64,000 bases of DNA from Parahoeflea halophila (GTDB taxonomy: Bacteria; Pseudomonadota; Alphaproteobacteria; Rhizobiales; Rhizobiaceae). Both the position numbers and the translations under genes were made by a program. The notes beneath the pieces are model-generated. The model ran no database searches and was not told the DNA's origin. It was given only the letters and a program-made list of their open reading frames with translations. The stretch covers positions 186,001 through 250,000 of the forward strand of contig NZ_OCPC01000005.1 of NCBI RefSeq assembly GCF_900220985.1, read 5' to 3'. Shown here piece by piece: positions 15,675 to 44,100 of the stretch; the stretch's first letter is position 1, and every line of letters begins with the position of its first letter.

Positions 15675-15710
15675 GATCAATCTTGTTTGATCAGAGGATC
15701 AAGGATTTTT
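15675..15710 (+). terminator. Possible weak terminator/attenuator between rsmE and gshA
   Basis: GATCAA (15675-15680), TTGATC (15687-15692) and GATCAA (15697-15702) can form either of two mutually exclusive 6-bp hairpins. The second ends just before GGATTTTT. This arrangement can act as a weak terminator of rsmE or as a switch in the gshA leader. Stem stability is low, so confidence is limited. Confidence 0.4.
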
Positions 15711-15795
15711 GCTTGCATGGGGGACCGGTTCCGGTCCAATCAGCATCATGATGCGTGGTTTGATATCGCGCCTATGAGATCAAAAAGGGCCAGAC

Positions 15796-18680: not shown

Positions 18681-18734
18681 ATGATTGATCATACCAGCGA
18701 ATGTTTCTAATCCTTATCATCAGAACTATTGATA
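18681..18734. promoter_or_regulatory. Dyads in the DUF1127-LysR intergenic region
   Basis: Two inverted repeats lie between the divergent genes: ATGAT-TG-ATCAT at 18681-18692 and TATCA-N10-TGATA at 18715-18734, the latter 11 bases from the LysR start. They are positioned for autoregulation and for activation of the DUF1127 gene by the LysR protein. This is inferred from position and symmetry. Confidence 0.4.

Positions 18735-22039: not shown

Positions 22040-22040
<1 letters not shown>
21411..22040 (-). CDS. Conserved hypothetical membrane protein
   Basis: A 209-residue inner-membrane protein that I do not recognise. Predicted helices are at about 9-29, 88-105, 118-138 and 165-190. A large loop between the first two (about residues 35-85) contains DQMLFGYDQEGARALFAAF and a HAGCDP motif. 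The C-terminus is polar. Its ATG overlaps the guaB stop by one base (TAATG), so it is translationally linked to guaB, though no functional link to purine synthesis is visible. Confidence 0.75.
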
Positions 22041-23665
<1,625 letters not shown>

Positions 23666-23746
23666 TCACCATATTTCGCTGCTCTGCACCCCTTCCTGCA
23701 CCACGCATGGTTTTGCACTGGGTAAAGACAAAATGATGGACAAACA

Positions 23747-23770
23747 AAAACCCGGGCATCGCTGCCCGGG
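23747..23770 (-). terminator. Strong intrinsic terminator of the candidate RNA
   Basis: CCCGGGCA-GCGA-TGCCCGGG is a perfect 8-bp GC-rich stem with a four-base loop, immediately followed on the minus strand by TTTTTGTTTG. It lies about 208 bases upstream of guaB and ends no visible protein gene, supporting an RNA gene or attenuator. Confidence 0.85.
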
Positions 23771-23915
23771 CCCTGGCTCTCACACCGGGATTTCGTGCCG
23801 GTTCGAAGCTCGAACCGGTCTGCATCGCGTATCAAACGGGGGCCCTCCGCAGAGGAGGTTTATCCGCCCGAGGGCAGCTCATGATTGGAGTTACCGGTCT
23901 CCACTCCCCGTTCGA
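23747..23915 (-). ncRNA. Candidate structured RNA upstream of guaB
   Basis: The minus strand here has strong nested structure and no convincing reading frame. A 10-bp stem (one G-U pair) joins 23906-23915 to 23832-23841. Inside it are hairpins at 23886-23903 (TGGAG/CTCCA) and 23844-23858 (CCTCC/GGAGG, containing an anti-Shine-Dalgarno-like CCTCCT), and a short one at 23866-23875. Next comes a perfect 9-bp stem with a three-base loop (23798-23818), then a terminator. It may be a free small RNA or the leader of guaB with an attenuator. I cannot assign it to a known family. The flanks (23540-23746 and 23916-24146) hold no recognisable gene. Confidence 0.6.
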
Positions 23916-24146
23916 ATTGTGATTCTTCGACAATGAACCTGCGTCAGACAGATGGTGCAACAGGATTACCGGACAAGCGTGCTGTTCTCGCGACAATGTT
24001 GACGCATCGTCTGCAAAAAGTGAACAACAGTTCTGGAAACTATAAATTCTCACCCGAATGAAACGATATTTAAACGACTCAACACACATTTACGGTTGCA
24101 AAAATTCGATCATTCGCGGCATGAGGCCGCCATAAGGGAACCTGAC

Positions 24147-25166
24147 GTGAAGAAGCTGTTTGCCGTGATACTAGCACCCGTGGCGTCTTCGCTGGTCCTG
24201 TATGCTTTGGTAAGCTTGGACCAACCGGCAAAGCATTCCGGGTTGAGATCTGCGCAGTTGTCACCGCTTGTTCCGCTGCACGATCTGTTTCCTCTCGCAG
24301 ACACGGGCCCAGACCTTGCGGCACCATCTGGGGTGAGCACCGGGGTGACCAAACGGACTCCCGAAAGCCGCTTCAGCGGGGTCCAATCGCGGTTGACGCT
24401 TCCCCAGGCAAATCCGGCCCCGGTGCCGTTGCCGACGGTGGTTCTGCTTACCAGTGATGATGCTGGCATCGCCGGCCCGAACACTGCCGAGACGGTTCTG
24501 TTTCTCGCCAATCGCGGATATGCAGTGCTGGAAATCAATTGCCGCGCGAGAACCGATGGCGGCAGAACTGCAGTGAAGCTCGTCCCTGGCGTTGTCGGGG
24601 TCTGCAGCGTGGCAACCATTGCAGATGAAACAGAGAAACTCATCAAGCAAGGAATAGCTGATCCATCGGCCCTGGCGCTGTTCGGATCGGGCTATGGCGG
24701 CACCCTCGCCCTGCTTGCGGTATCCATCGTGCCTGATCTGTTCAAGGCGGCGGTGGTCCATTCCCCGGCCCAGTACCAGACCGGTAACCTCGCTAAAGGA
24801 CCCGTGCGAGAGCGAATGATCCGCACCACGTTCGAAGCAGATTTCCATCCCAAGGCCCTTCAAAAGCCTTCCGGCAGAAGCCGGAGCGGTTCGCTTGCCG
24901 AGCTGATAGGCGCATCGCGAGCTGCGCTTCTGATAACCCATGGAAATGATGAAGTGGCCACTCCTTTCGACCGGGCCCATGCCCGTGAATTGATGGCATC
25001 GAGAGGAAACATTGCGATCCACGATCTCGGTGCCAAAGGCCAGAACTATTCGCGCTGGCAAACCCGTGTTGAGGTTGCCCGGCTGACGGAAACCTTTCTG
25101 GCCCGCCATCTCGGCGGCCGCAATGGCGGTTATGACTATATCGAGCTGCTTGCAAAATTGTTCTGA
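24147..25166 (+). CDS. S9/prolyl-oligopeptidase-like protein lacking catalytic residues
   Basis: A 339-residue alpha/beta-hydrolase-fold protein started at GTG 24147, seven bases after AAGGGA. The N-terminus (MKKLFAVILAPVASSLVLYA) is a membrane anchor or signal. The fold is recognisable: LANRGYAVLEINCRA, DPSALALFGSGYGGTLALLA, VPDLFKAAVVHSP and LITHGNDEVATPFDRAHAREL. The nucleophile motif GxSxGG reads GSGYGG, with Gly in place of Ser, and the usual DEGHGF histidine motif reads GAKGQNY. The acidic residue remains. It is therefore probably a non-catalytic, envelope-associated relative rather than a working peptidase. Confidence 0.7.
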   Translation: MKKLFAVILAPVASSLVLYALVSLDQPAKHSGLRSAQLSPLVPLHDLFPLADTGPDLAAPSGVSTGVTKRTPESRFSGVQSRLTLPQANPAPVPLPTVVLLTSDDAGIAGPNTAETVLFLANRGYAVLEINCRARTDGGRTAVKLVPGVVGVCSVATIADETEKLIKQGIADPSALALFGSGYGGTLALLAVSIVPDLFKAAVVHSPAQYQTGNLAKGPVRERMIRTTFEADFHPKALQKPSGRSRSGSLAELIGASRAALLITHGNDEVATPFDRAHARELMASRGNIAIHDLGAKGQNYSRWQTRVEVARLTETFLARHLGGRNGGYDYIELLAKLF

Positions 25167-43329: not shown

Positions 43330-44100
43330 TCAGTCTCGGAACATAGCCACCGGCCTGCACCAGCCCGCGCTGGCATCCTTGACCTTGACCGGGAAGCAGA
43401 CCACCTCGAAGCCGGTGGCGGGCAGCGTCTCCAGCGCGGCCATCTTTTCCATGTGGCAATAGCCGCGCACCATGCCAGCCCGGTGGCCTTCCCAGATCAG
43501 CGAGGCATCGCCGGTTTCCGCGACTTTCCGGGCGGTATGGATAAAGGGAGCGTCCCAGCTCCAGGCATCGGTTCCTGTCACCCGCACACCGCGTTCGGTG
43601 AGGTAGAGTGTCGCTTCACGTCCCATGCCACAGCCGGTGCCAACATAGGCTGGCGTGCCATAGGCCTCTGCGGCCGCCGTGTTGACCAGCACGATATCGC
43701 CTTCGCGCAAGGTGTGGCCAATACGCGCCAACTCGTCTTCCACATCCTTGGCGGTGGCAACATAGCCATCGCCAAAATGCCGGAAGTCGAGCTTGACGCC
43801 CTGCCCCCAGCACCACTCCAGCGGCACCTCGTCGATGGTGATGGCGCGCTTGCCGCCATCCATCGTCGAATGGAAATGGTAGGGTGCGTCGAGATGGGTG
43901 CCGTTGTGCGTGCTCAGCGCAACCGTTTCCACTGCCCAGCCCTCACCACCGGGCAGCTGGTCGCGGGTCACTCCCGGAAAAAAGCCAAGCACCTGCTCTG
44001 CCGAATCGTCGTGACCCGTATAGGCAATTTTCGGACCAAGGCCCGGCGGATCGGCGTACTCTGTGTTTTCCAGCGGCCGGGATAGATCGACAAGTCTCAT
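43330..44100 (-). CDS. Cyclase-family hydrolase (kynurenine formamidase/isatin hydrolase-like)
   Basis: A 256-residue protein of the cyclase family starting at ATG 44100 (MRLVDLSRPLENTEYADPPG). The metal-binding HxGTHxDxPxH-type motif appears as STHNGTHLDAPYHF at about residue 86. GTDAWSWDAPF and IWEGHRAGMVRGYCHMEKM follow, with ALETLPATGFEVVCFPVKV near the end. Known members hydrolyse N-formylkynurenine, isatin or cyclic amides. Together with FAH and a TRAP importer it suggests hydrolytic opening of a cyclic substrate. Confidence 0.88.
   Translation of the reverse strand: MRLVDLSRPLENTEYADPPGLGPKIAYTGHDDSAEQVLGFFPGVTRDQLPGGEGWAVETVALSTHNGTHLDAPYHFHSTMDGGKRAITIDEVPLEWCWGQGVKLDFRHFGDGYVATAKDVEDELARIGHTLREGDIVLVNTAAAEAYGTPAYVGTGCGMGREATLYLTERGVRVTGTDAWSWDAPFIHTARKVAETGDASLIWEGHRAGMVRGYCHMEKMAALETLPATGFEVVCFPVKVKDASAGWCRPVAMFRD

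Follow-up and report, generated by a model that had tools for sequence, protein, structure and literature searches.

A conserved terminator module at the former site of an MBL-fold hydrolase gene upstream of guaB: candidate small RNA or insulating terminator

Genome comparison identifies positions 23747-23915 of a 64,000-nucleotide stretch of the Parahoeflea halophila genome (the window; genome G000, 4.19 Mb, a Hoeflea) as the former site of an MBL-fold hydrolase gene, lost from this genome and its sister. The segment, which lies upstream of guaB, had been singled out by a sequence-only reading as one structured RNA with its own terminator. That observation is real but composite, and the segment consists of two things with different histories. 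The 3' end, on the minus strand, carries a 35-nt module made of a 13-nt box (GTGTGAGAGCCAG) and a terminator hairpin, a candidate 3'-UTR-type small RNA or insulating terminator shared with other Hoeflea genomes. The remainder is about 130 nt that lack relatives and happen, in this species, to fold. It is the plain-looking 3' end that has support, and the striking fold that has none. Features and coordinates are collected in Table 1.

Table 1. Features of the guaB upstream region, in positions of the window
Feature	Position	Strand	Basis or remark
guaB, IMP dehydrogenase	22040..23539	-	ATG at 23539; Pfam IMPDH E 3e-156
guaB promoter-like block	23622..23648	-	CTTTC (23648-23644), 16 nt, TGGTAC (23627-23622)
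T-run of intrinsic terminator	23741..23750	-	sequence; terminator scan
35-nt module: box GTGTGAGAGCCAG + terminator hairpin	23751..23785	-	present in 10/18 Hoeflea genomes
Terminator hairpin stem	23771-23763/23758-23750	-	last base just beyond the 35-nt module
Box GTGTGAGAGCCAG, 13 nt	23785-23773	-	sequence conservation
5' structured part	23792..23916	-	folds; found in the window genome only
Promoter-like remnant of lost MBL gene	23949..23977	-	CTTGTC (23977-23972), 17 nt, CATCTG (23954-23949); alignment with pre-MBL region of L064, L065 and sister L066
Divergent hydrolase gene	24147..25166	+	Pfam PF00326 Peptidase_S9 E 1e-11; GTG start chosen by eye

The 5' structured part has no convincing relatives

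The elements of secondary structure described earlier are all present on the minus strand. Fold prediction for 23915-23747 gives a 10-bp closing stem (23915-23906 paired with 23841-23832) that encloses three hairpins, then a perfect 9-bp hairpin at 23818-23798, and finally the terminator hairpin with its 9-bp stem and T-run. The G+C-rich hairpin and T-run of an intrinsic terminator occupy 23771-23741, and a terminator scan of 23400-24300 returned the hairpin at 23771-23750 as the stronger of two (shuffles average 1.1). The anti-Shine-Dalgarno motif CCTCCT had been described as exposed, which the prediction contradicts: CCUCC (23858-23854), its first five bases, pairs with GGAGG (23848-23844) in one of the three enclosed hairpins, each base being about 79% paired.

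The folding z-score was -3.28 for 23915-23747 with the terminator included and -3.26 for the 125-nt 5' part without it (200 shuffles); a 146-nt stretch gave -3.01, with 0 of 200 shuffles as good. Of 1272 stretches of equal size from the 64-kb window, 16 reached the level of -3.26; this background excluded stretches overlapping the element and used 30 shuffles each, against 200 for the element. The fold of the 5' part is unusual, yet within what choosing from 64 kb gives. The strongest-folding 125-nt stretch in a scan of the window, at 43701-43825 (z about -7, computed with T letters; -4.4 for a 220-nt stretch at the same locus), lies opposite a putative cyclase gene (Pfam), indicating that strong folds here need not mean RNA genes.

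When 23730-23990 was searched against the DNA of 61 genomes, 14 had a match, ten of them Hoeflea genomes. In the nine Hoeflea genomes besides G000 the match was limited to the 3' end, at about query positions 199-253. The other four, L012-L015, belong to other families; their matches (E 8e-4 to 6e-3) were short, proved unrelated on reading and were dropped. The 5' part itself found no relative by DNA search among the 17 other Hoeflea genomes (best E 0.086) and no match at E 1e-4 in 296 other draws from the order, which overlap the family draws. The 393 other family draws yielded eight rows from seven genomes, of 21-27 nt and E 0.001-0.009. These were rejected as chance, the 160 nt around seven of them showing by eye nothing like the rest of the element; three resemble, again by eye, one recurring protein motif. 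In the sister species, the counterpart between presumed start and box is no more stably folded than shuffled sequences (z +0.68), and a longer stretch of it gave z +2.24.

Other origins for the element were also considered. A repeated or mobile element was rejected on its single copy in its own genome and the lack of plasmid or phage matches; the five other matches in G000 at E up to 10 are all 19 nt or shorter, and one exact 24-mer of the element was absent from viral contigs. A known RNA family was rejected, as Rfam gave no match to the element at gathering score and only a tRNA elsewhere in the window. At a permissive threshold four Rfam matches appeared (E 0.71-4.9), all far under the cut-offs of their own families. 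Pfam searches of 8 reading frames across the segment returned nothing at E < 0.05 and a single match at E 0.092. No relic of the MBL gene was found in the 5' part by tblastn with the MBL protein, which gave only matches of 19-20 residues elsewhere in the window (E 5-9).

A 35-nt module is conserved at the 3' end

The module occurs as a single copy, always upstream of guaB, in each of the ten Hoeflea genomes that have it, and it is absent from the other 8 of 18 with up to 3 mismatches allowed. In 394 family draws, with up to 2 mismatches, it was found in four, all of them Hoeflea, out of eight Hoeflea drawn. As only half of these carry it, and as three Hoeflea genomes with an intact MBL gene are without the box, the module is young and local.

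Mean pairwise identity among the ten box genomes is 97% for the box and 97% for the hairpin, compared with 42% for the stretch before the box and 34% for the spacer after the terminator; guaB four-fold sites give 64% in the same genomes. Conservation of a 3' UTR beyond its terminator, as looked for in a 3'-UTR-derived small RNA, is found in 10 of 18 genomes (box 97% vs flanks 34-42%). The modules of G000 and its sister G002 differ at 1 of 35 positions, and that of G011 has one mismatch in the terminator stem.

When 40 kb was compared with the nine other box genomes, the module ranked first of 2078 non-coding 35-nt segments (0.946; next 0.87). In this ranking unaligned bases were scored as different; positions close to guaB are favoured, as some genomes contribute shorter stretches (10.5 kb for G008, one side for G005); and the promoter block of guaB is unranked because it falls inside a stop-to-stop ORF. 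The second most conserved segment, 18689-18723 (0.87), lies just upstream of a LysR-type gene (Pfam) and is probably its promoter or operator region. The third, 15705-15739 (0.81), holds a palindrome, GGACCGGTTCCGGTCC, after an A/T-rich stretch.

The terminator closes an MBL-fold hydrolase gene in relatives

Ten of the 18 Hoeflea genomes encode, upstream of guaB, an intact orthologue (E 2e-167 or better) of a protein with the MBL fold (Pfam Lactamase_B, E 4e-16). The gene is codirectional with guaB, and the relatives' copy of the same terminator lies shortly 3' of its stop codon. Seven of the ten module genomes have the intact gene, one has a truncated gene (G011) and two have none (G000, G002); three others with an intact gene (G001, G007, G015) have terminators without the box. 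The earlier statement that no protein gene ends here holds in the window genome and fails in the relatives, where the MBL gene does. In H. alexandrii (G011; L064 3353-3688, minus strand) the gene is cut to its two ends, with about 200 middle residues gone, and the remnant forms one 138-residue open frame. The G000 window contains no significant MBL match, and genome-wide only a 31% paralogue was found elsewhere.

G000 and G002 (Hoeflea sp. NORP7) group as sisters (support 100/99), so a single loss of the MBL gene before their split is the simplest account; elsewhere the tree has little resolution, with 5 of 15 inner branches starred.

The upstream edge of the old locus is marked by the divergent hydrolase gene, relatives of which stand beside guaB in H. 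alexandrii (L064), an alphaproteobacterial MAG (L065) and Hoeflea sp. NORP7 (L066). The region between this gene and the old MBL start aligns in four genomes (the window, L064, L065 and L066) and includes the promoter-like remnant of Table 1. This remnant is putatively the old MBL promoter, promoter-like in sequence only; a sigma-70 scan of 23400-24300 with an E. coli-type model found no promoter.

guaB has a promoter-like block of its own

All 18 Hoeflea genomes have guaB. The gap separating the terminator from this gene contains the block CTTTC-N16-TGGTAC, found at an identical 21-nt offset in all 18 genomes, also in those with other genes upstream, and we infer that it is the guaB promoter. 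Because this invariant block separates the terminator from guaB, 23747-23915 is probably no guaB leader. The description "upstream of guaB" is right as to position and misses the conserved block in between. A guaB leader would be the 5' UTR of guaB, downstream of its promoter; here the putative promoter block is downstream of the terminator. A riboswitch would have its structure conserved in relatives; the 5' part was not found in the 17 other Hoeflea genomes. The comparison of related genomes upstream of guaB, proposed as a check, found the 5' structure without convincing relatives and little covariation in the guaB leader. In that leader proper (23537-23632), 36 of 96 positions are invariant in the 18 Hoeflea genomes and a small GC hairpin can be drawn; two-sided changes occur in 3 of 16 pairs and the covariation term is -0.12. 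A literature search on guaB, small RNA and Sinorhizobium terminators gave nothing but work on E. coli 6S RNA.

The rpsJ leader is a candidate target of the box

In G000 the gap between an EF-Tu gene and rpsJ, which encodes ribosomal protein S10, contains a perfect 11-nt complement of the box, 28-18 nt ahead of the rpsJ start codon (families by NCBIfam). The ten box genomes contain 15 perfect 11-nt complements, of which nine are the module itself and six lie elsewhere. These six have no neighbourhood in common; one is the rpsJ site, which is also one of the two found outside the module in G000. The rpsJ gene itself turned up in all Hoeflea genomes except the 75%-complete G008 (17 of 18). The eight other box genomes with rpsJ have the same site with one G-U wobble, and with a further mismatch in G006. 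Predicted duplex energies range from -17.1 to -23.4 kcal/mol, G006 with its mismatched box having the weakest. Against the rpsJ leader of G002, 0 of 1000 shuffled boxes paired as well as the real one.

Pairing between the box and the rpsJ leader is predicted in all nine box genomes with rpsJ, and also for 4 of 8 box-less genomes, which carry the same wobble site, suggesting that the site exists for reasons of its own. Moreover, one further, unrelated place in the 64-kb window pairs as strongly as the wobble duplex, which by our arithmetic means dozens genome-wide and one or two before start codons by chance. rpsJ may be a target of the box, as a post hoc candidate that chance could give. The Hoeflea tuf-rpsJ gap (L113 in G000; L088 1458-1528) has features of its own: a hairpin with variable loop and flanks, then GG(T/C)TCTCACAC, then the ribosome binding site. 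The GG(T/C)TCTCACAC form is kept in 13 of 17 genomes, and the whole is possibly an S10 operon leader element in its own right.

Proposed model and rival explanations

The account we favour, with moderate confidence, is that the relic of the MBL transcription unit yields a short non-coding RNA, in which the box may be a small RNA seed. What the locus retains is a pre-gene region that can still be recognised, some 130 nt lacking relatives and the near-unchanged 35-nt 3' module. Transcription from the old MBL promoter would produce a non-coding RNA of about 200 nt with its 3' end at the terminator, and guaB would be transcribed apart, from its own promoter. More weakly, the box, having survived gene loss, could be what does the work: it would act as the seed of a 3'-end small RNA, the terminator forming the 3' tail of that RNA, and by pairing with the rpsJ leader would block access to the ribosome binding site. 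The persistence of this 13-nt sequence, which lies outside the hairpin, beyond the loss of the coding gene points to a role of its own. The fuller claim, that the module is a 3'-UTR-derived small RNA that outlived its parent, turned by the MBL loss in the G000/G002 lineage into a stand-alone small RNA gene whose seed may act on the rpsJ leader and so on ribosomal protein synthesis, with successive stages (intact gene, truncated gene, no gene) visible across living Hoeflea species, we put forward only tentatively and hold to be rather doubtful.

The module could instead be kept only as an insulating terminator against upstream read-through into guaB, the box aiding termination or processing of the transcript end, with no trans-acting RNA. 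We regard this as a serious possibility, though short of probable: both hairpin and T-run vary hardly at all and precede the guaB promoter-like block, and insulation alone would suffice to explain retention of the module after MBL loss, but the box lies outside the hairpin and is just as conserved, and the terminators of three intact-MBL genomes do without it. A species-specific small RNA that works through its 5' multi-hairpin domain, CCUCCU motif included, seems unlikely. The z-scores of the 5' part without the terminator and of the 146-nt stretch argue for it; against it stand the lack of convincing relatives of the 5' part, the poor folding of both sister stretches, the mostly paired CCUCC and the 16 background stretches that fold as well. 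Of the free small RNA proposed earlier, the idea itself is possible and gains support from the 13-nt box, while the hairpins and anti-Shine-Dalgarno motif stressed in that proposal were not found even in the sister. The other proposal was a guaB leader, either riboswitch or attenuator, in which premature termination is regulated; the shared strand and a terminator upstream of guaB speak for it. It was rejected, and we consider it very improbable, since the terminator ends another gene in 8 of 10 genomes (7 intact, 1 truncated), guaB has its separate invariant block downstream, Rfam gave no match and the structured part is not conserved.

If the box is a small RNA seed, Hoeflea would offer a natural series for the origin of stand-alone small RNA genes from mRNA 3' ends as the coding gene decays, and ribosomal protein synthesis would supply a target open to test. 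Should the module be a terminator only, a false guaB-riboswitch candidate is removed and an orphan terminator explained.

Comparison with known systems

Papers found for Hoeflea and small RNA dealt, judging by title and the start of the abstract, with other subjects, and a literature search for 3' UTR-derived small RNAs in Rhizobiales found none. In passages of one review, conservation beyond the terminator, downstream of the stop codon, is said to be a possible mark of the seed of a 3'-derived small RNA (PMC9438474). CpxQ and SdhX, 3'-UTR-derived small RNAs treated in those passages, resemble the module in joining a short conserved stretch past a stop codon to an intrinsic terminator, and in that this stretch is more conserved than its surroundings (PMC9438474). 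Unlike them, as far as they are described there, the module is known here from sequence alone and its parent coding gene is gone in two genomes.

The rhizobial anti-Shine-Dalgarno small RNAs alpha-r14/NfeR1, AbcR1/2 and MmgR have, in the portion of the source consulted, conserved motifs in unpaired regions or loops (PMC7143759). The element shares with them a hairpin-rich RNA, a CU-rich anti-Shine-Dalgarno motif and an origin in related bacteria (PMC7143759). It differs from these RNAs, as portrayed in that portion, in that its CCUCC is mostly paired and found in this genome only, and in that it matches no Rfam family; an unpaired, conserved CU-rich motif is not what we found, the CCUCC being about 79% paired and not conserved.

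The module can also be compared with the ordinary intrinsic terminator of an upstream gene, which is what it is in the seven relatives with an intact MBL gene and the same module. Unlike an ordinary terminator, it carries a 13-nt box outside the hairpin that is equally conserved, and it persists after the gene is lost.
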